This document shows, piece by piece, positions 6,291 through 62,452 of a stretch of 64,000 nt of DNA. The stretch's first letter is position 1; every line of letters begins with the position of its first letter. The stretch covers positions 1 through 64,000 of the forward strand of contig CALVXO010000001.1 in assembly GCA_944371325.1 (NCBI GenBank), read 5' to 3'. The DNA comes from an uncultured Bacilli bacterium. Lineage in GTDB: Bacteria > Bacillota_I > Bacilli_A > RF39 > UBA660. A program made the translations under genes and the position numbers. Below the pieces are notes generated by a model, which was given only the letters and a program-made list of their open reading frames with translations, was not told the origin of the DNA and made no database searches.

Positions 6291-7424
6291 CTTAGTATTA
6301 TTTATTAACCCTTCCCACATTATATTTATTGCTGCATTGATATCTCGATCATTTTCATTGTTGCATTTTGAACATGTCCATTTTCTTTTGCTCAAGTCTT
6401 TCATTTCTTTATTTTTGGCATTGCAATGACTACATATTTGGCTACTTGAATAATATGTATTTATTTGATAAAAATGTTTATTTTGCCACTTGCTTTTATA
6501 TTCTAATTGTCTTATTATTTCACTTAAACTTGCATCAGCAATATATTTAGACATTTTCTTTTTTTCTATTAATTTTTTTGTTTGTAGGTTTTCGGTTATT
6601 ATTAAGTCGTTAGCACTTACTATTTCTTTTGTTATTTTATGGATTGTATAATTTCTAGCATTTTTTAATTTTTTATATGTTTCTTTTATTTTATTTTTTA
6701 CTTTATAATAATTTTTACTTCCTTTTTCTTTTTTACTTAACCATTTTTGTAAGTTTTTTATCTTTTTTTCATATTTGTTGATATATTTTTTGTTTTCATA
6801 TTTTTCACCAAAACTTGTTATTACTAAATCTTTTACTCCTAAATCTATTCCAACTATTGTTTTTGGTATTATATTTTTTTCTTCTAAATCTTCCTCATAT
6901 AACACTGATACATAATATCTATTTATTTCTTTACTTATTGTAGCATTTATTTTTCTTCCTTTTATTTCTTTTGTTTTTCTATAGCCTCTTATCTTTATAT
7001 CTTTTAATTTTGGTAATGTTATTCTTTTATTTATTAAATCTAATTTAATATTTTCATATATCTTATTTTTATAATTATTTTTTATATAGTTTGTACGATA
7101 ACTATTTTTACTGTATTTATCTTTATATTTTGGATAATGTTTGGTTCTATAAAAATTTTTAAAAGCTGTTTCTAAATCAAATATAGTTGTTCTTAATGCC
7201 ATGATATCTACTTCCATTAACCATGGATATGTTTGTTTTAGAAATGGTAATTCTTTTATACATTCTTTTTTCGATTTAGTTATTTTATTTTCTTTATATA
7301 GTTTTTCTTTTTCATATAACATTGTGTTATAAACAAATCTAGTACACCCTAAAGTTTTGTTTATTAATTCTTGTTGTTCTTTATTTGGATATAATCTAAA
7401 TTTATATGCTTTATATATTTTCAT
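6279..7424 (-). CDS. tnpB: RNA-guided TnpB nuclease (OrfB)
   Basis: A 381-residue TnpB. The RuvC catalytic residues are all present: Asp194 in GIDLGVKDL, Glu278 in DLIITENLQ and Asp361 in NDRDINAAINI. The inserted zinc finger is Cys331-Cys334-Cys351-Cys354 (CSHC and CSKC). The N-terminal OrfB helix-turn-helix part begins YKAYKFRLYPNKEQQ. TnpB cuts DNA next to a short motif under omega RNA guidance and helps keep the element in place. The start at 7424 (GGTGGTG ribosome binding site) is preferred over the in-frame upstream codon at 7454. The gene looks fully active. Confidence 0.93.
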   Translation of the reverse strand: MKIYKAYKFRLYPNKEQQELINKTLGCTRFVYNTMLYEKEKLYKENKITKSKKECIKELPFLKQTYPWLMEVDIMALRTTIFDLETAFKNFYRTKHYPKYKDKYSKNSYRTNYIKNNYKNKIYENIKLDLINKRITLPKLKDIKIRGYRKTKEIKGRKINATISKEINRYYVSVLYEEDLEEKNIIPKTIVGIDLGVKDLVITSFGEKYENKKYINKYEKKIKNLQKWLSKKEKGSKNYYKVKNKIKETYKKLKNARNYTIHKITKEIVSANDLIITENLQTKKLIEKKKMSKYIADASLSEIIRQLEYKSKWQNKHFYQINTYYSSSQICSHCNAKNKEMKDLSKRKWTCSKCNNENDRDINAAINIMWEGLINNTKLFT

Positions 7425-7557
7425 TTTATCACCACCATGATTAAATCTTATCACACATACATATGTTCGTCAATATACTTATTTAAATTTTGCAAACAAT
7501 TTTTAATTATATTAAATATAACAAAAATGTGTTTAAGATCTATTATACTGTTAGAAG

Positions 7558-7797
7558 TTGATTTTATATTTTATTATATTAAGTCGAATTACAGTTCATT
7601 ACATCTGCCCAAAATGTAAAAACAAATTTAAGGATCCTATTGAAGCCGTCTTAGAATTTGAACAAGAAGATGAATGGAATGGTTTACCTATTTCTACACC
7701 ACCTTACATTATTTGTTCAAAATGTAATTTTAACAAATGTGTACCTATTGATTATGTATCTAAACGCGGTTATCATCATAAATATATTGAAAAATAA
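7558..7797 (+). CDS. Small zinc-ribbon protein, possibly 5'-truncated
   Basis: From about residue 15 the frame encodes YICPKCKNKFKDPIEAVLEF and ends in a second IICSKCNFNKC, giving a two-CxxC zinc-ribbon layout in about 66 residues. There is no ATG; the only upstream start is TTG at 7558 without a good ribosome binding site. The gene may use an atypical start or have lost its 5' end when DNA was inserted beside it. A terminator follows at once, which suggests it is or was expressed. Function is unknown. Confidence 0.5.
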   Translation: MILYFIILSRITVHYICPKCKNKFKDPIEAVLEFEQEDEWNGLPISTPPYIICSKCNFNKCVPIDYVSKRGYHHKYIEK

Positions 7798-7821
7798 AAG
7801 TTAATAAATTGTTAATTACAA

Positions 7822-7843
7822 GCAAGATTTTATCTTGCCTTTT
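7822..7843 (+). terminator. Rho-independent terminator
   Basis: GCAAGAT, loop TTT, ATCTTGC, followed by CTTTTTG, placed just after the zinc-ribbon gene. Confidence 0.75.
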
Positions 7844-7899
7844 TGCGTATAGCAAACTACCACGTGTTTTGACTTTTGCTCTATAACTTTCCTATTATA

Positions 7900-7939
7900 C
7901 AAAAAAACAGATAATTTAAATATTATATAAATTATCTGT
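7900..7939 (-). terminator. Rho-independent terminator of the cad operon
   Basis: On the minus strand ACAGATAATTTA and TAAATTATCTGT (12-bp perfect arms, 9-base loop) are followed by seven T residues. The cadA stop codon lies in the first arm. Confidence 0.8.
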
Positions 7940-9800
7940 TATTATAATTATTTTTAATTCTTAAAACTCTTAAAGCATTTACAATGGCTAGCACAGAAAC
8001 ACCAACATCAGCAAATACTGCTTCCCACATAGTTGATACTCCGAATGCACTAAAAATTAAAACTCCAATTTTTACTGCAATAGCAAATACTATATTTTGT
8101 TTTACAATTCTCATTGTTTTTTTAGAAATCTGAACAGAACTTGCAATTTTAGATGGCTCATCTGTCATAATAACCACATCAGCTGCTTCAATAGCTGCAT
8201 CACTTCCAAGGCCACCCATTGCTACTCCTATATCAGATAGTGCTAGAACTGGAGCATCATTGATTCCATCTCCAACAAAGATAAGTTTTCCTCCAGATGA
8301 TTTTTGAGTCATTAATTTTTCTACCCAAGAAACTTTATCTTGTGGTAATAATTCTGCATGATACTCGTCTAAATTAAGTTCATTAGCTACAGACTCACTA
8401 ATATTATCACGATCTCCTGTTAACATAACAACTTTTTTAACATTATTGTTTTTAAATAATTTTACTGCTTTATAAGAATCTTCTTTAATTTTATCAGCAA
8501 TTAATATTGTTCCTGCAAATTCATCATTTATTGCAACATATACTATTGTTCCTGTTTCTTCACTCTTTTGAAATTTAATATTATATTCTTTCATTATTTT
8601 TTCGTTTCCAACTAAAACCATCTTTCCATCTACTTTTGCTAAAACACCTTTACCTGAAATTTCTTGTGTTTCAGTAACAAGTTTTTCATTAATTTCTTTA
8701 TTGTATGCTTGTTTCAATGAAATAGAGATTGGATGATTAGAAAAACCTTCTGCATAAGCTGCATATCTTAATAACTCATCATCAGAGTATCCAATAGATT
8801 TAATTTTTTGAACCTTAAATACTCCCTCTGTTAATGTTCCTGTCTTATCACACACTACAATTTCAGCACTTGCAAGAGCTTCTAGGTAATTACTTCCCTT
8901 TATTAAAACCCCTATTTTAGAAGCTGCTCCTATTCCCCCAAAGAATGATAAAGGAATAGAAATAACCAAAGCACATGGACAAGAAACAACTAAAAATGAC
9001 AATGCTCGATATAACCAATCACTAAATAAGGCTTCTTTAATAACAAGAGGAGGAATTACTGCTAATGCAACTGATACTATAACTACAATAGGAGTATAGT
9101 ATTTTGCAAATTTGCTAATAAAGTTTTCAGACTTCGATTTTCTACTACTAGCATTTTCTACTAAATCTAATATCTTACTAACAGTTGATTCTTCAAATTC
9201 TTTACTTACTTTAATTTTTAAAATTCCATCATTGTTTATACAACCACTTAATACTTCATCATTTACAGTTACTTTTCTTGGTACTGATTCTCCTGTTAAT
9301 GCTTGTGTATTAAGCATTGATTCGCCATCTACTACAATTCCATCTAAAGGAATTTTTTCTCCCGGTTTTACTAATATAATTTCTCCAATATTTACTTCAT
9401 CTGGATCTACTCGTTCAATTTCATCCTCTCGATATACGTTAGCATAGTCTGGCCTTATATCCATAAGACTTGCAACAGACTTCCTTGACCTATCTACTGC
9501 ATAGCTTTGAAATAATTCTCCTATTTGATAGAAAAGCATTACTGCAACCGCTTCTGGGAATTCTCCAATGCAAAATGCTCCAATTGTTGCAACAGTCATT
9601 AAAAAGTTTTCATCAAAAACTTTACCTTTAAAAATATTTCTTACTGCCTTCAATACAATGTCATAACCCACAATTATATAAGCAATTACATACAAAATAT
9701 TACTATATAATTCGGTATCAAATTTAAGCAATAAGGAAATAACAACCAATAAAAGAGAAATAATTATCTTAATTAATTGCTTACTCATTTTTCGGCTCAT
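7932..9800 (-). CDS. cadA: Cd/Zn/Pb-translocating P1B-type ATPase
   Basis: A 622-residue heavy-metal exporter. It has TGES (169-172), the CPC ion motif (274-276, SCPCALVIS), DKTGT (318-322), an HP motif in SNHPISISL and GDGINDAPVL near residue 505. The late GVAMGGLGSDAAIEAADV block is typical of ZntA/CadA pumps. It lacks the N-terminal metal-binding domain, which is encoded instead by the small gene just upstream (9806-10030), five bases from the cadA start. Together with cadC this is a Cd/Zn resistance operon; the exact metal range is inferred. Confidence 0.93.
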   Translation of the reverse strand: MSRKMSKQLIKIIISLLLVVISLLLKFDTELYSNILYVIAYIIVGYDIVLKAVRNIFKGKVFDENFLMTVATIGAFCIGEFPEAVAVMLFYQIGELFQSYAVDRSRKSVASLMDIRPDYANVYREDEIERVDPDEVNIGEIILVKPGEKIPLDGIVVDGESMLNTQALTGESVPRKVTVNDEVLSGCINNDGILKIKVSKEFEESTVSKILDLVENASSRKSKSENFISKFAKYYTPIVVIVSVALAVIPPLVIKEALFSDWLYRALSFLVVSCPCALVISIPLSFFGGIGAASKIGVLIKGSNYLEALASAEIVVCDKTGTLTEGVFKVQKIKSIGYSDDELLRYAAYAEGFSNHPISISLKQAYNKEINEKLVTETQEISGKGVLAKVDGKMVLVGNEKIMKEYNIKFQKSEETGTIVYVAINDEFAGTILIADKIKEDSYKAVKLFKNNNVKKVVMLTGDRDNISESVANELNLDEYHAELLPQDKVSWVEKLMTQKSSGGKLIFVGDGINDAPVLALSDIGVAMGGLGSDAAIEAADVVIMTDEPSKIASSVQISKKTMRIVKQNIVFAIAVKIGVLIFSAFGVSTMWEAVFADVGVSVLAIVNALRVLRIKNNYNNR

Positions 9801-9805
9801 GATAA

Positions 9806-10030
9806 CTATACCTCCTCAATGGTTACATCTGGTTCTTCTTTCTTTATGATTTTTCTAATTTTCTCTAATGCTTGTTCCTTATTTTCTTCAGTACATTCAA
9901 AGTTTAATTTTTGTGTCATAAAACTGATACTAACATTCTCAATAATATCAATTTTTCGTAATGCTCCTTCTAATTCATTTGCACAATTTGCACAATCTAA
10001 GTTTTTAATTTTAAATTTGTATTTGTTCAT
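9806..10030 (-). CDS. Stand-alone HMA metal-binding protein
   Basis: A 74-residue HMA (ferredoxin-like) domain with the metal motif LDCANCANELEGAL (Cys13 and Cys16). It sits between cadC and cadA and probably acts as the detached N-terminal metal-binding domain or metallochaperone of CadA. A Glu-rich tail (EEPDVTIEEV) could add metal ligands. It has its own AAGAAGG ribosome binding site and ends five bases before the cadA start. Confidence 0.85.
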   Translation of the reverse strand: MNKYKFKIKNLDCANCANELEGALRKIDIIENVSISFMTQKLNFECTEENKEQALEKIRKIIKKEEPDVTIEEV

Positions 10031-10054
10031 TTTAATCCTTCTTTCTTTATATTT

Positions 10055-10417
10055 TTAACCTTTATGGTTAATGTGCACTAAACCAATTTCAAACAATTTA
10101 ACAATATGTTCATCATCCAAAGTATAAAATACTTCTTTTCCACTTTTTCTGCACTTAACAACTCCACTTCTTCTAAGAACTGCAAGTTGGTGTGAGATAG
10201 ATGATTTAGTCATATTTAGTACATTTGCTAAATCACAAACACACATTTCGCTTTGATCTAATGCAAATAAAATTCTACATCTTGTTGTATCTCCTATCAG
10301 TTTGAATAAATCTGCTAAATGGTTAAATGTGTCTTCATTTGGCATTTTTTGTAATACCTCATCTACAGCTTCTTGATGAATAACATTACAATCACAAGAA
10401 AATTCACTTCTAGACAT
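10055..10417 (-). CDS. cadC: CadC/SmtB-type ArsR-family metal repressor
   Basis: A 120-residue winged-helix repressor that dissociates from DNA on Cd(II), Pb(II) or Zn(II) binding. Both metal sites known in the family are visible: the alpha3N site (Cys8 and Cys10 with Cys59 and Cys61 in MCVCDL) and the alpha5 site (Asp102, His104, His115 and His118, spaced DxHx10Hx2H). The recognition helix is in NMTKSSISHQLAVLRRSGVV. It heads the operon cadC-HMA-cadA, and palindromes lie in its promoter. Confidence 0.94.
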   Translation of the reverse strand: MSRSEFSCDCNVIHQEAVDEVLQKMPNEDTFNHLADLFKLIGDTTRCRILFALDQSEMCVCDLANVLNMTKSSISHQLAVLRRSGVVKCRKSGKEVFYTLDDEHIVKLFEIGLVHINHKG

Positions 10418-10447
10418 AAATTCCCTCCAATAATATTATATGTTTTT

Positions 10448-10504
10448 AGTTGAATGTTTGCTCAACTGATTATATTATATATGAATAATTATTCAACTGT
10501 CAAT
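10448..10504 (-). promoter_or_regulatory. cad promoter with CadC/SmtB-type palindromes
   Basis: The minus strand has TTGACA (10499-10504) and TATAAT after 18 bases. A perfect palindrome TGAATAATTATTCA (10482-10495) fills the spacer. A second imperfect repeat, AGTTGA/TCAACT (10448-10467), lies downstream over the start region. Both resemble ArsR/SmtB operators, so repression by CadC is likely. Confidence 0.75.
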
Positions 10505-10568
10505 AGTTTATAAAATCTTTTTAAATAATTTTAAATGAAGTAATTTTTTTGATATGTTTCCTAATAAA

Positions 10569-10846
10569 ATGAAATTAGAAAAAGTAAAGAAGAAAATAAT
10601 GTATTTCCAATTGGTAATGTATATAATTAAAAGGAATATAGAAAATACATTATATCGTTTATATTCCCGAGGATTACAATTTAAAACAAAGTTATCCTAT
10701 TTGTATAACACTACCAAGCTATGAGGAATTATATTTCCAATTAGTTAGCGTAAATTTAAAATGCAAAGTTTTTGCTAGTGAAACTAAAAAAATTAATATT
10801 CAAATGATTATTTAAGATTCGCACCTTAATAATTTGCGAGAATCTT
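10569..10846 (+). pseudogene. Degraded coding remnants in the 10505-10960 gap
   Basis: Two overlapping short frames are present. An ATG frame at 10569-10724 gives 51 residues (MKLEKVKKKIMYFQLVMYII and on). A second frame, open from 10642 to the TAA at 10813-10815, has natural composition (YNLKQSYPICITLPSYEELY and on) but no start codon. Both contain YFQLV, because ATTTCCAATT is repeated in the DNA. An imperfect hairpin (10814-10823 with 10835-10846) follows the stop. I read this as a decayed gene. The rest of the gap shows no clear gene. Confidence 0.3.
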
Positions 10847-10943
10847 CAGCAATTTAAACTATATCATTAATAGAATATTTTATCTCTCAATATTATCATC
10901 GTAATCATATTCCTTATATAAATCATCATCTAAATTAAATCTA

Positions 10944-10969
10944 TATATACTATATATACTTTATATACT
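10944..10969 (+). repeat. Three 9-bp direct repeats TATATACTW
   Basis: TATATACT recurs at 10944, 10953 and 10962, exactly 9 bp apart, across the stop codon of the replication-initiator-like gene. They could be iteron-like or simple low-complexity sequence. Confidence 0.4.
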
Positions 10970-11656
10970 TTGATTAATTGCATTCTTAAAATAACCAAAT
11001 TTATTTTTAATCTCTTTCCCATCTTCGTCTTTAAATTTATTTGATATAACTCTTGGAACAATATAATGTATCATTGTCATAAGATCTCGATAGGAATTAT
11101 CTTCTAATAATTTTTCAAATAAACTATCATAATAAAATATTTGACTATCTTCTTCATTTATATAATTTGTTTCTATTAATTCCAAAGTCAATCTATTATG
11201 TTCTTCAGCAACAAAAAAAGATGATATCGTTTTATCATCTTTATCTATTTGTTTATTAGTATTTATTATATTAGTATTTATTTGTGGGTGTTCTTCCACA
11301 TCTGGAATATCCAGGTGTGGAATTTCCATATCTGGACTACTTTTTTTGTTATCAATATCAATATAATTTGGTTTTTCATAAATTAAATAATTATATTCAA
11401 AATAACCTTTATCTCCTCTAACTTTTTCAATTTCTAAATAATGATTTTGTTGTAGTTCTTTTAAAGTTGATCTTATAGCATCTCTATTTTCTTTACTAAT
11501 TGAACATAAACCTTTTAAAGAATAATCCCAATCTTCTGGCAATGATAACATGAATGACAATAAACCTTTTGCTTTATAGCTTAAATTTTTATCTCTTAAA
11601 TGATAATTACTCATAACTGTAAAATCTTTCGTTTTTTCTATTTTGAACACTGACAT
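10961..11656 (-). CDS. Replication-initiator-like helix-turn-helix protein (DUF6017-like)
   Basis: A 231-residue protein. Residues 1-100 match the N-terminal winged helix of plasmid/ICE replication-initiator-like proteins: TVMSNYHLRDKNLSYKAKGL, then SLPEDWDYSLKGL, then a recognition region with ENRDAIRSTLKELQ. The middle is a low-complexity linker. The C-terminal block (YRDLMTMIHYIVPRV, then IKNKFGYFKNAI) resembles DUF6017. The ATG at 11656 is chosen because AAAGGAG lies just ahead; the longer frame runs back into the tRNA gene. Such genes are usually found on plasmids, phages and ICEs, which supports the island reading. Confidence 0.75.
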   Translation of the reverse strand: MSVFKIEKTKDFTVMSNYHLRDKNLSYKAKGLLSFMLSLPEDWDYSLKGLCSISKENRDAIRSTLKELQQNHYLEIEKVRGDKGYFEYNYLIYEKPNYIDIDNKKSSPDMEIPHLDIPDVEEHPQINTNIINTNKQIDKDDKTISSFFVAEEHNRLTLELIETNYINEEDSQIFYYDSLFEKLLEDNSYRDLMTMIHYIVPRVISNKFKDEDGKEIKNKFGYFKNAINQSI

Positions 11657-25435: not shown

Positions 25436-25525
25436 CTTTCATCGATATTAGCTTTACCACCTAACTTAATAGGTTGGTATGAGTTCACTGAGCTAATTCT
25501 CTCCCTCATTCTTGATAAAATTATA
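25436..25525 (-). promoter_or_regulatory. SAM-I riboswitch (S-box) before metK
   Basis: On the minus strand TTATCAAGA, GAGGGAGAGA, TGAA, CCAACC, GGTGGTAAAGC and GATGAAAG occur in the order and spacing of the S-box aptamer. The closing helix is TTTATC with GATGAA (one wobble). A terminator follows. The 5' end overlaps the last codons of miaB, so a promoter must lie within or ahead of miaB. Confidence 0.85.
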
Positions 25526-48900: not shown

Positions 48901-49452
48901 TTACATTTTATTATATCGATTTAATATAAGTTGTTTTGCTTTAGGTTGACCATTTTTAATAGCTTCAATAAAAAATGTTTTTCTAACTTCATCATAGCCA
49001 TTTTTGTTTTTATTAGTACTATATGGATTTAAAACTATGTTTTCTTGTTCGAAATCTTTTGTTAAAACAACAGATTCTCCCATTTCATTTGCATTTAAAT
49101 ATGCATGTTTAACAACACCACTTTCAATATCTCTATATGATCTATAAAGAGCTAATTCACTAAATAAATCTACAGCACGAGTATAATAGGTCGTTTCTTG
49201 ATAACATATATTACAATCTTCATAAAACGCACCTGTACAAACATATATACCATTTGTTTCAATTATTTTATAATCTTCTAATATCTTTTTTATTATTTCC
49301 CATTCATCAATAGTGAGTAATTGTTCATCAATTCCCTTTAATTTTAAAAATTCAATAACATTTTCATTTTGTAGTAATTCATTTATTCTTAATATTCTTT
49401 CTTTCTCATATTTCAATGTTTTTTTTAAATAAACTAATTCATTTCGTTTCAT
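48901..49452 (-). CDS. Unrecognised partner of the HTH-CYTH protein
   Basis: A 183-residue soluble protein. The N-terminal third is helical and Lys/Glu-rich. The middle has a cluster of three cysteines (YVCTGAFYEDCNICYQE, about residues 70-86), followed by an alpha/beta-looking part (VVLTKDFEQENIVLNPYSTN). No family is recognised. It overlaps the HTH-CYTH gene by 14 bp, so the two are coexpressed and probably act together. Confidence 0.6.
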   Translation of the reverse strand: MKRNELVYLKKTLKYEKERILRINELLQNENVIEFLKLKGIDEQLLTIDEWEIIKKILEDYKIIETNGIYVCTGAFYEDCNICYQETTYYTRAVDLFSELALYRSYRDIESGVVKHAYLNANEMGESVVLTKDFEQENIVLNPYSTNKNKNGYDEVRKTFFIEAIKNGQPKAKQLILNRYNKM

Positions 49453-50188
49453 TTTTGTTACTCCTTACTAAATAATCAAAATATCTTTTATTATCTATTA
49501 AATTTAAATCTATTTTAAGTTCGTTTAAAAAATTTATTAAATCATTATATTCTTTTTCATAATCTGAAACTTTACTTTTTACTTCTATCTCTACAAATAA
49601 ACCAATATCTTTTACATTATCAAATGAAAATTCATATTTTTCATTATATAAATATTTTTCTCTTTCTTTATCAATAACACCTATTTTTTTAAAATTCAAA
49701 CAAAATAGAATATTCTCTAATTTTTTTTCATTATCGATTATTGTCTCATATTCATCACAATAATTTTTATCAACTAATTTTTTATAATTTAATATGTACT
49801 TACCATTTTCATTTCTTATTCTTAGCCATTCATTTTTAAAGTCTTTAAATTGTGGAGAAAAATATGTATCAAGTTGTCTATTTTTTTCTATGTAAGAAGC
49901 TCTTTTCTTTACAAAGTTTAAAATTTTTTTCCAATCGTTTAAATCAACTTTTATTTTTACTTCTAATTCAGTATTATTTAAATTACAATACTCACCATTT
50001 GTTAATGAATAAAAGCTTGTATGAAAAATATCACATAATTTAAATATAAAATTAATATCTGGTATAGTTCTGTTATTTTCCCAACTAGATATAGTTTTAT
50101 TAGAAACATGCAAAATATTTGCTACTTCAAGTTGACTCATTTCATTTTTAATTCTTAAGTTTTTAAGTTTTTCACCTAAATCATCCAT
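49439..50188 (-). CDS. XRE helix-turn-helix fused to a CYTH domain
   Basis: A 249-residue fusion. Residues 6-61 are a Cro/C1-type helix-turn-helix (MSQLEVANILHVSNKTISSW). Residues about 72-235 are a CYTH (triphosphate tunnel) domain: ELEVKIKV (74-81) gives the ExExK motif, then YFSP, WLRIRNENGK, NYKK, YETI, DKEREKY (KxR), FSFDNV and FVEIEV. The ExExK and the basic residues of the tunnel are retained, so triphosphate binding and possibly catalysis (adenylate cyclase or thiamine triphosphatase type) are plausible. The fusion would tie DNA binding to a triphosphate ligand. It precedes the 183-residue gene. Confidence 0.82.
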   Translation of the reverse strand: MDDLGEKLKNLRIKNEMSQLEVANILHVSNKTISSWENNRTIPDINFIFKLCDIFHTSFYSLTNGEYCNLNNTELEVKIKVDLNDWKKILNFVKKRASYIEKNRQLDTYFSPQFKDFKNEWLRIRNENGKYILNYKKLVDKNYCDEYETIIDNEKKLENILFCLNFKKIGVIDKEREKYLYNEKYEFSFDNVKDIGLFVEIEVKSKVSDYEKEYNDLINFLNELKIDLNLIDNKRYFDYLVRSNKNETK

Positions 50189-50290
50189 AACAAACCTCCT
50201 ACAACTTAATTATAGCATAATCGACTATAATAGTTTGTCTATGATTTGTAGAATATATAATTTTCAAGATAAACAATTTTTACATAAAAT

Positions 50291-51175
50291 TTAAATCAAC
50301 TCATATTCTTTGGCTATTATTCTTTTATCACTACAATACTCTATAATAAATTTATTATTTTTTTTACATATAATTATTCCAATAGTCTTATCCTGATTTA
50401 TTTTCTTTAAATTTTTATCTATATAATTCATATATACTTCTATTTGACCTATATATTCTTTTTTTAACTCTGTTACTTTCAATTCAACTACTACATAACA
50501 ATTAAATTCAATGTTATATAATAATAAGTCTAAATAATTATATGTATCACCTAATTTAATTTTATATTCGTGACCTATATAAGAAAAATTATCACCAAGT
50601 TCCATCAAAAAATTATCGACATCTTCCAATATTAATCTTTGTAATACTTTTTCTGTTACTATTTCATTATTACTACTATTTTTAATTAATATTGGATTTT
50701 TAATCATATCTATTACTTCATATTTTTGTGAATTTTTTAATTTTAATTTAGTTTTCTCATCTAATCTTTCGTATTCTTTATTTTTTATTTTTTCTCTTAA
50801 TTGTCTAATTGATAAATTTTGTTCTTCTATTATTTTAATATAATATTTAACCTTATTAATATCTTCATATGGTAATAATTCAACATAATGACTATAAGAT
50901 AAATTTGGTGACACTGTCGCCATTTTTTCTATTAAGTAATAAAACTTCTTCATTTTATTTAAAGACGACACATCATATTGTTTCTTTAATTCTTTAGTTA
51001 ATTTTATAGAATATTCTTTTATTATTCCTTCACCATAGTGTTTCCCTGCTAAAGATAATAGCCTACCAACATTATAATATGTAGTTAAATCACTTTTATT
51101 TTTACTATAATCTTTTACTCTTTTTGTTATTTCATTATTTATTATCTGTTCTTTTATCTCATTATAATAATTCAT
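50291..51175 (-). CDS. YhcG/DUF1016-family PDDEXK nuclease, intact copy
   Basis: A 294-residue protein. The N-terminal DUF1016 part (about 1-125) is helical (YNVGRLLSLAGKHYGEGIIK). The C-terminal nuclease domain has the PDDEXK core NYLDLLLYNIEFNCYVVVEL with the K in ELKV, then GQIEVYMNYID. YhcG proteins are widely linked to restriction and mobile DNA; the target is unknown. The ATG at 51175 follows AAAGGAG. It is the downstream of two tandem copies. Confidence 0.88.
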   Translation of the reverse strand: MNYYNEIKEQIINNEITKRVKDYSKNKSDLTTYYNVGRLLSLAGKHYGEGIIKEYSIKLTKELKKQYDVSSLNKMKKFYYLIEKMATVSPNLSYSHYVELLPYEDINKVKYYIKIIEEQNLSIRQLREKIKNKEYERLDEKTKLKLKNSQKYEVIDMIKNPILIKNSSNNEIVTEKVLQRLILEDVDNFLMELGDNFSYIGHEYKIKLGDTYNYLDLLLYNIEFNCYVVVELKVTELKKEYIGQIEVYMNYIDKNLKKINQDKTIGIIICKKNNKFIIEYCSDKRIIAKEYELI

Positions 51176-51189
51176 AATCACTCCTTTTA

Positions 51190-52072
51190 TCAAATTAACT
51201 CATATTCTTTAGCTATTATTCTTTTATCACTGCAATACTCTATAATAAATTTATTATCTTTTTTACATATAATTATTCCAATAGTCATATCCTGATTTAT
51301 TTTTCTTAAATTTTTATCTATATAATTCATATATACTTCTATTTGACCTATATATTCTTTTTTTAACTCTGTTACTTTCAATTCAACTACTACATAACAA
51401 TTAAATTCAATGTTATATAATAATAAGTCTAAATAATTATATGTATCACCTAATTTAATTTTATATTCACTTGCAATAAAACAAAATGAATTACCAAGTT
51501 CTTTCAAAAAAATTTCTATATCCTCTAATATTAATCTGTGTAGTATTTTTTCAGTTATCATTTTGTTATTACTACTATTTTTAATTAATATTGGATTCTT
51601 AATCATATCTTTTACTTCATATTTTTGTGATTTTTTTAATTTTAATTTAGTTTTCTCATCTAATCTTTCGTATTCTTTATTTTTTATTTTTTCTTGAAGT
51701 TGTCTAACACTATATAAATTTTCACTTGAAATCTTAGCATAATAATTAAATTCATTTATTGAACTTAAAGTTATCAAAATTCTATAATGACTCCATGATA
51801 ATTGGTGCCACACTGTGGCACCTTTTTCTACCATAATATAAAATTTACGCATTCTTTTTAAGGTTGTTGTGTCGTAATTTCTTCCAAATTCTTTAGTTAA
51901 TTTTATAGAATATTCTTTTATTATTCCTTCTCCATAGTGTTTCCCTGCTAAAGATAATAATTTACCAACATTATAATATGTCGTTAAATCACTTTTTTTT
52001 ACTATAATCTTTTACTCTTTTTGTTATTTCATTATTTATTATCTGTTCTTTTATTTCATTATAATAATTCAT
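51190..52072 (-). pseudogene. YhcG/DUF1016 second copy, frameshifted in an A8 tract
   Basis: The start at 52072 reads MNYYNEIKEQIINNEITKRV as in the intact copy and then meets TGA after DYSKKK. The frame resumes as SDLTTYYNVGKLLSLAGKHY in another phase and is open to 51190. The shift falls in a run of eight A (T on the plus strand, 51993-52000), where the intact copy has AAAAATAAAA. The C-terminal 140 residues are nearly identical to the intact copy, but residues about 80-120 differ strongly (KGATVWHQLSWSHYRILITL against KMATVSPNLSYSHYVELLPY). Confidence 0.85.
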
Positions 52073-62255: not shown

Positions 62256-62289
62256 AATTATATAAAACTTAATAATGAAAGGAGTTATT

Positions 62290-62430
62290 TATTAAGTTAG
62301 CGCCAGAACTAATTAGTTGACGAGGATAACAGTTATCGAAATATTCGGCGGATGCTGTTACGGGATGTGCTCTCGCAAATATATTACAAACCATAAAATC
62401 AAGATTATGACAAAAAATATATTACGCATG
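62290..62430 (+). ncRNA. glmS ribozyme (GlcN6P-sensing self-cleaving RNA)
   Basis: The order AGCGCCAGAACT, AGTTGACGAGGAT, TTATCGA, TTCGGCGGATGC, CGGGATG, TCGCAAATA matches the conserved glmS ribozyme core. Cleavage is expected before the G at 62300 (A/GCGCC). When glucosamine-6-phosphate binds, the RNA cuts itself and the glmS transcript is degraded. The 3' limit is approximate. Confidence 0.92.
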
Positions 62431-62452
62431 TTTTTTTATAATGGAGGTTTTT

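Follow-up and report, generated by a model that had tools for sequence, protein, structure and literature searches.

A fused XRE–CYTH protein and its conserved partner as a candidate triphosphate-responsive gene pair in a gut bacterium

Analysis of the window (the whole 64,000-nucleotide stretch of DNA examined here) revealed two genes that overlap by 14 nt and encode a 249-residue protein joining an XRE helix-turn-helix to a CYTH domain, followed by a 183-residue partner termed P2. The data suggest that this gene pair from a gut bacterium, which travels together among relatives, is an uncharacterised molecular switch. The reading we prefer, held with confidence and doubt in about equal measure, is that the fusion and P2 form a triphosphate-responsive, autoregulated two-gene cassette in which P2 would be the effector or a co-factor. 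CYTH enzymes are widespread, and the physiological signal of many is unclear. Here an intact-looking tunnel, a mapped site and a conserved partner make the triphosphate question testable on a system of two small proteins and a single 15-bp site; an answer would also give a function to the P2 family, for which neither an annotation nor a solved structural relative was found. No description of an XRE–CYTH fusion was found in the literature searched, with most subscription journals outside its scope. The features of the window discussed below are as follows.

48901–49452, minus strand: partner P2, 183 aa (open reading frame; no curated family; alignment of 21 sequences; AlphaFold2 model)
49439–50188, minus strand: XRE–CYTH fusion regulator, 249 aa, with the helix-turn-helix at residues ~4–66, a low-confidence linker at 65–71 and the CYTH/TTM tunnel at ~73–242 (open reading frame and translation, Pfam, AlphaFold2 model, homologue residues)
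50195–50200, minus strand: AGGAGG, ribosome-binding site for the fusion gene (direct reading)
50209–50214, minus strand: candidate −10 box, TATAAT after a TGN, 23 nt downstream of the repeat (direct reading)
50238–50252, minus strand: TCTAC-AAATC-ATAGA, an operator-like inverted repeat ahead of the operon (site conservation)
50291–51193, minus strand: neighbouring YhcG (DUF1016_N plus YhcG_C nuclease), 300 aa (YhcG_C, 123.9 bits; PADLOC PDC-S02)
51190–51852, minus strand: second neighbouring YhcG, N-terminally short, 220 aa (Pfam YhcG_C, 122.4 bits)

Domains, predicted fold and tunnel residues of the fusion

An earlier note on this DNA had described the 249-residue protein as an XRE domain joined to a CYTH domain, and both domains scored above their Pfam cut-offs. 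HTH_3 matched residues 8–59 (43.5 bits, cut-off 23), consistent with an XRE-type regulator, and CYTH matched residues 73–224 (64.6 bits, cut-off 23.2). An AlphaFold2 model built from 12 sequences had a mean pLDDT of 81.5 with a weak linker at residues 65–71. Comparison of this predicted model with solved structures using VIA-align placed its C-terminal part on SaTTM with bound triphosphate (7nsf; Z 19.1, 169 residues, rmsd 2.5), in agreement with the tunnel fold anticipated for residues 72–235, and its N-terminal part on the ImmR DNA-binding domain (Z 12.8). The nearest solved chain by sequence was the archaeal triphosphatase Saci_0718 (E 1.1e-11). The fusion combines ExExK with a predicted tunnel fold carrying basic and acidic residues, the marks of the CYTH/TTM superfamily, which was reportedly defined in a 2002 paper. 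Taken together, the domain matches and the predicted model support the identification of this protein as a DNA-binding regulator whose triphosphate tunnel looks intact.

To describe the tunnel, residue conservation was scored across 32 distinct XRE–CYTH sequences of at least 200 aa each. The ExExK motif of the window protein, E74-x-E76-x-K78, was kept almost throughout (E74 and E76 in 31/32; K78 in 30/32, with Arg in the other two). R123, K136, K174, R176, D190 and E200 were present in all 32 homologues and E202 in 30, with Lys in two. The claim that ExExK and the basic tunnel residues are retained was thus borne out by near-invariance across the family. R125 of the RxR pair was found in 18 of the 32 homologues; the other 14 carry Gly, mostly in proteins without P2, and hydrolysis may be altered in them. 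W121 was kept in 21/32.

The fusion also matched the NCBIfam cyaB model TIGR00318 (68.6 bits, cut-off 57.95). According to section 10 of PMC8233210, class IV adenylyl cyclases are marked by HFxxxxExExK and thiamine triphosphatases by W/YxRxR; triphosphatases have a second Glu in ExE, which is Ala in cyclases. The HF positions before ExExK are C68-N69 in the window protein, and neither H nor F occurred there among the letters listed for the 32 homologue rows. Since HF is missing and the second Glu of ExE is kept, not replaced by Ala, a class IV adenylyl cyclase label was rejected under these published criteria. The published CYTH motifs support a probable triphosphatase or triphosphate-binding sensor, not a cyclase, despite the cyaB match.

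The window protein carries the thiamine triphosphatase motif as W121-x-R123-x-R125. This motif is not general among its relatives, given the variation at W121 and R125. The thiamine pyrophosphokinase family PF04263 had no match in the draft genome that holds the window (92% complete). Thiamine triphosphate is therefore only a possible ligand, favored by WxRxR and weakened by the missing PF04263. The same genome has three RelA_SpoT matches, that is, (p)ppGpp enzymes are present, and this proves nothing about what the fusion binds. It also encodes a second CYTH protein of 351 aa (L002, 922–1977; contig C1, ~135–136 kb), whose C-terminal half is unassigned.

An operator-like repeat at regulator promoters

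Regulation by the fusion is made concrete by a conserved operator-like site, a reading supported by comparison of upstream sequences. The consensus TCTAC-N5-RTAGA lies mostly 40–77 nt upstream of the start codon and was defined on the same upstream sequences in which it was counted, with other genes of the same loci as a control. An exact copy was found at 26 of 37 regulators (21/32 of the XRE–CYTH type and 5/5 of an XRE–AAA_28–CYTH type), and a copy with at most one mismatch at 30 of 37. This set omits eight loci that repeat contigs under another identifier and genes shorter than 100 aa or with fewer than 100 nt of upstream sequence, leaves near-identical genomes uncollapsed and counts one shortened gene (L061). 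Only 5 of 746 control genes had the exact repeat, all five at regulator loci: three at the heads of regulator-containing operons (L048, L051 and L128), one at the gene divergent from the regulator (L161, with the repeat separating the regulator from the P2-containing operon) and one at a second neighbouring unit in L048. For the exact sites, the observed score was reached in 0–1 of 100 dinucleotide shuffles of each upstream region.

Seven of the 37 regulators had no site directly upstream, even with one mismatch allowed. The site stood at the operon head in L048, L051 and L128; in L058 it lay inside an over-long open reading frame just before the likely start, and the L163 gene is truncated at the contig edge. 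L129 and L130 had no site at all. The L048 locus (6655–11567) is a larger unit that encodes two CxH/CxxC small proteins, the XRE–CYTH protein, a third such small protein and genes of 299 and 267 aa; the repeat occurs at the head of this unit (6655) and again before the second unit (11091).

In the genome of the window, the exact pattern occurred at four places, no more than a reversed control, and the only intergenic copy was that at 50238–50252; thus, the regulator appears to act on no operon but its own. Within the window, 11 copies with up to one mismatch were counted against 6.9 expected, which is chance level, and the claim for the local site therefore rests on conservation and not on rarity. 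The scan that gave the candidate −10 box was likewise at chance level as a whole (20 found, 18.7 expected). With the repeat covering the −35 region or lying immediately 5′ of it, repression appears likelier than activation at this promoter. Rfam models searched against the window matched two tRNAs, a SAM riboswitch before a methionine adenosyltransferase-like gene (25436–25521, minus strand) and a glmS riboswitch (ribozyme; 62288–62433, plus strand), and nothing at the fusion–P2 operon.

The partner protein, its distribution and its surroundings

The earlier note's description of the overlapping 183-residue gene as lacking a known family withstood further searches. P2 had no Pfam match over the cut-off, none at E ≤ 1 in NCBIfam or PADLOC and none below E 0.1 in PHROGs. 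AlphaFold2 modelling from 21 sequences (pLDDT 89.9, pTM 0.81) predicted an N-terminal helical hairpin, a beta sheet and two C-terminal helices. No Foldseek match to this model was found at E ≤ 0.001 in the PDB or the BFVD viral models; the best VIA-align score was Z 4.6 on the helical part, in a match list filled by helices of which none was trustworthy. The best-kept stretch in the alignment of 21 is LNPYNxxxNxNGYxEV. The cysteine cluster pointed out in the earlier note did not hold up as a functional mark, with C80 present in 5/21, C83 in 10/21 and C72 in 16/21 partner proteins, and a metal site at these unconserved cysteines was rejected. With a search space of 1000, the P2 profile matched L157, a distant family member with CxH and CxxC motifs, at E 1.3e-7. 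A common zinc-ribbon origin is only a lead, because L128, a zinc-ribbon relative, does no better than E 0.4. Divergent P2-family copies also occur in tandem within small-gene arrays at L148 and L160, with no CYTH regulator in the stretches fetched.

To examine conservation of the pair from the side of P2, GTDB contigs were scanned for P2 alone. This analysis revealed 16 loci, all from uncultured bacteria and mostly labelled as Bacilli or Erysipelotrichaceae MAGs, and in all 16 an XRE–CYTH-type gene lay within three genes of P2. The regulator was directly upstream of P2 in 14 of the 16, with spacing from a 4 nt overlap to an 85 nt gap. The neighbour conservation in other genomes that had been proposed as a check was thus found at every P2 locus. 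The 16 loci collapse to 11 at 85% identity, the near-copies being L163/L164/L166 (98–99%), L172–L174 (86–89%) and L175/L176 (94%). Tandem duplicates of P2 occur at L170 and L172–L174.

Two types of regulator accompany P2: 11 of the 16 loci encode XRE–CYTH and five encode XRE–AAA_28–CYTH (445 aa). A copy of one of the latter proteins (L062) matched Pfam AAA_28 (94.2 bits) and HTH_3 (47.7 bits). Its CYTH part had no Pfam match at E ≤ 0.5; the C-terminal part matched chains 3typ (E 6e-6) and 2fbl (E 7.1e-6), which we take to be CYTH-family structures. In the P2 tree the five AAA-type partners grouped with that of L161, an XRE–CYTH locus, with support of 99/99. The P2 proteins of L161 and L162 are 70% identical, the regulators are of different types, and both loci also encode a similar-looking 138–143-aa protein and a CxH/CxxC protein, as judged by eye. 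These comparisons indicate that one regulator type has replaced the other around the same partner. At L134 (2171–4001), which has no P2, an XRE–CYTH gene overlaps a separate downstream AAA_28–CYTH-like protein of 373 aa that clusters with the L062 protein, placing two CYTH types side by side.

Counting from the fusion gave a looser association. Among 193 genomes of its own taxonomic family, the full-length fusion was present in 14; a P2-family protein was present in 37, usually with no CYTH regulator nearby. Both genes occurred in five of these genomes and were together in all five, as direct neighbours in four and with two genes between them on diverging strands in one. An order-level scan of 288 genomes identified the full-length fusion in 27; P2 was beside or near it in nine of these and absent in 18, and P2 is therefore not obligatory for the fusion. 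Fusion matches at E ≤ 1e-20 were patchily distributed, in 34 of the 288 genomes. In 295 genomes sampled from the phylum, no full-length XRE–CYTH protein was found outside its own taxonomic family, and an AAA_28–CYTH protein without a matched helix-turn-helix was found in two, one of them in the same family. An XRE–CYTH gene at L135 (6692–7508) is broken by several stops and split into helix-turn-helix and CYTH pieces.

The cassette occupies varied chromosomal positions. It lies behind a gene that we take to be comEC in the window, L175 and L176, and presumed comEC fragments adjoin it in L163, L164 and L166; other sites are, by our assignment, prfB/tilS–ftsH, ligA, recG and a TetR gene. The loci are not independent, because hot spots such as the comEC end are shared. 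In L164 (1–3201) and L166 (2–3199) the cassette and a Bro-N (DinD-like) gene are flanked on both sides by partial comEC 3′ ends, as if an insertion had left the comEC end duplicated; these are short MAG contigs, for which mis-binning is possible. In L163, likewise a short MAG contig with possible mis-binning, a comEC C-terminal fragment lies downstream of P2.

A phage, plasmid or viral origin of the cassette was considered and rejected, with P2 unmatched and the fusion matched only in part. P2 had no match in phage or plasmid records or viral contigs. Fusion matches in phages and plasmids were partial, none covering 80%; nearly all of those listed start in the helix-turn-helix, and one phage match (27% identity) covers residues 89–234. 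A single-protein query identified no fusion in viral contigs, and an alignment query gave nine matches at the helix-turn-helix end that reach residue 127 at most.

A defence or stress role had been suggested from the neighbouring YhcG nucleases. The adjacency itself stands: a complete YhcG gene immediately precedes the module in the window, and in L175 one immediately follows P2. Fragments of YhcG occur near the cassette in L164 and L169, Bro-N genes in L164 and L166, and RhuM in L165. The evidence for such a role is circumstantial. No anti-phage profile in PADLOC-DB 2.0.0 matched the fusion or P2 beyond the generic helix-turn-helix, the best fusion matches (RmrA, HTH_VI) scoring at most 37.5 bits and mostly covering that domain. 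YhcG is also common, with ~160 YhcG_C matches in 78 genomes of the same bacterial family, or ~2 per genome. YhcG adjacency is only suggestive of a defence link.

Possible mechanisms and comparison with known systems

In the preferred reading of a triphosphate-responsive cassette, the XRE domain would bind TCTAC-N5-RTAGA at its own promoter, probably as a repressor, and control only its own operon. The tunnel of the CYTH domain would bind a triphosphate, nucleotide-like or inorganic, and probably hydrolyse it, and tunnel occupancy would change DNA binding. Arrival of the signal would induce the operon and let P2 accumulate as a response effector or co-factor; hydrolysis by the CYTH domain would then destroy the signal and reset the switch. 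A bolder version, possible and on balance doubtful, is that the pair is a new triphosphate-triggered genetic switch, perhaps in anti-phage or stress responses, with CYTH as both sensor and off-timer and P2 as an effector of undescribed fold. The signal could then be a metabolite triphosphate, for example thiamine triphosphate or pppGpp, and CYTH proteins of two lineages would have come to share one XRE operator logic and one partner.

Other explanations were weighed, and the likelihoods that we assign to the cassette, antagonist, metabolic and toxin–antitoxin readings overlap in part. P2 may instead be an antagonist or co-regulator that binds XRE–CYTH directly and modulates its DNA binding, not a downstream effector. 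The tight coupling, and the retention of one partner by two regulator architectures that share XRE and CYTH parts, are consistent with this idea, and SinR–SinI provides a precedent of an XRE regulator with a small antagonist. The wider P2 family, however, occurs without CYTH regulators, and we think the antagonist model improbable. Metabolic control, by which a housekeeping triphosphatase limits its own synthesis and P2 is an accessory of the same reaction with no defence or stress signalling, would account for the stand-alone XRE–CYTH genes with the same repeat in many genomes and for the loci beside what we take to be housekeeping genes such as comEC, ligA and recG. We rate it as unlikely, given a patchy distribution and varied positions that are unlike those of a housekeeping gene.

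A type II toxin–antitoxin module, with XRE–CYTH as autoregulating antitoxin and P2 as toxin, would fit the gene order (XRE regulator first, overlap or short gap), the autoregulatory type of inverted repeat and antitoxin-like NCBIfam and PADLOC matches, which fall mostly in the helix-turn-helix and, for NCBIfam, far under the cut-off. We nevertheless regard it as quite unlikely: most fusion-bearing genomes have no P2 beside or near the fusion, catalytic residues are kept where P2 is absent, P2 is duplicated in tandem at four loci and it matches no toxin family. That the two genes are shared cargo of variable islands, without a common function, is very improbable; both families do occur in islands of small lineage-specific genes, but a CYTH regulator stands at every P2 locus, the partner is kept across the regulator swap and the site is kept as well. 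A class IV adenylyl cyclase regulator making cAMP is barely credible despite the TIGR00318 score, with HF absent, Arg where cyclases have a small residue, Ala missing from the second position of ExE (by the PMC8233210 motifs) and a triphosphatase as the closest PDB entry by sequence.

Compared with known systems, the fusion resembles CyaB (TIGR00318) in scoring over the NCBIfam cut-off and differs in lacking HFxxxxExExK and the class IV Ala. CRISPR-linked CARF/SAVED proteins with CYTH, as described in a figure legend of PMC10910872, likewise place CYTH in a signalling or defence context; in contrast, no CARF/SAVED domains or CRISPR arrays came up here in an unsystematic scan of neighbours. Thiamine triphosphatases (WxRxR, according to PMC8233210) share the motif with the window protein, whereas only 21 of 32 fusion relatives have its Trp and PF04263 is unmatched in the genome of the window. 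Kinase–TTM proteins such as plant TTM1 (7z67) join a P-loop domain to CYTH, as XRE–AAA_28–CYTH does, but the latter carries an XRE helix-turn-helix and is encoded with P2. XRE repressors (ImmR, P22 C2, SinR) share the predicted helix-turn-helix fold (Z 12.8 to ImmR), and the fusion likewise has an operator-like inverted repeat at its own promoter; unlike them, the fusion has an apparent enzyme tunnel as its C-terminal domain. SaTTM Saci_0718 (7ns8–7nsf) shares the predicted tunnel fold (Z 19.1), ExExK, RxR, Lys, Asp and ExE, whereas the window protein is fused to an XRE helix-turn-helix, has an operator-like site that is conserved and is accompanied by a co-conserved partner.
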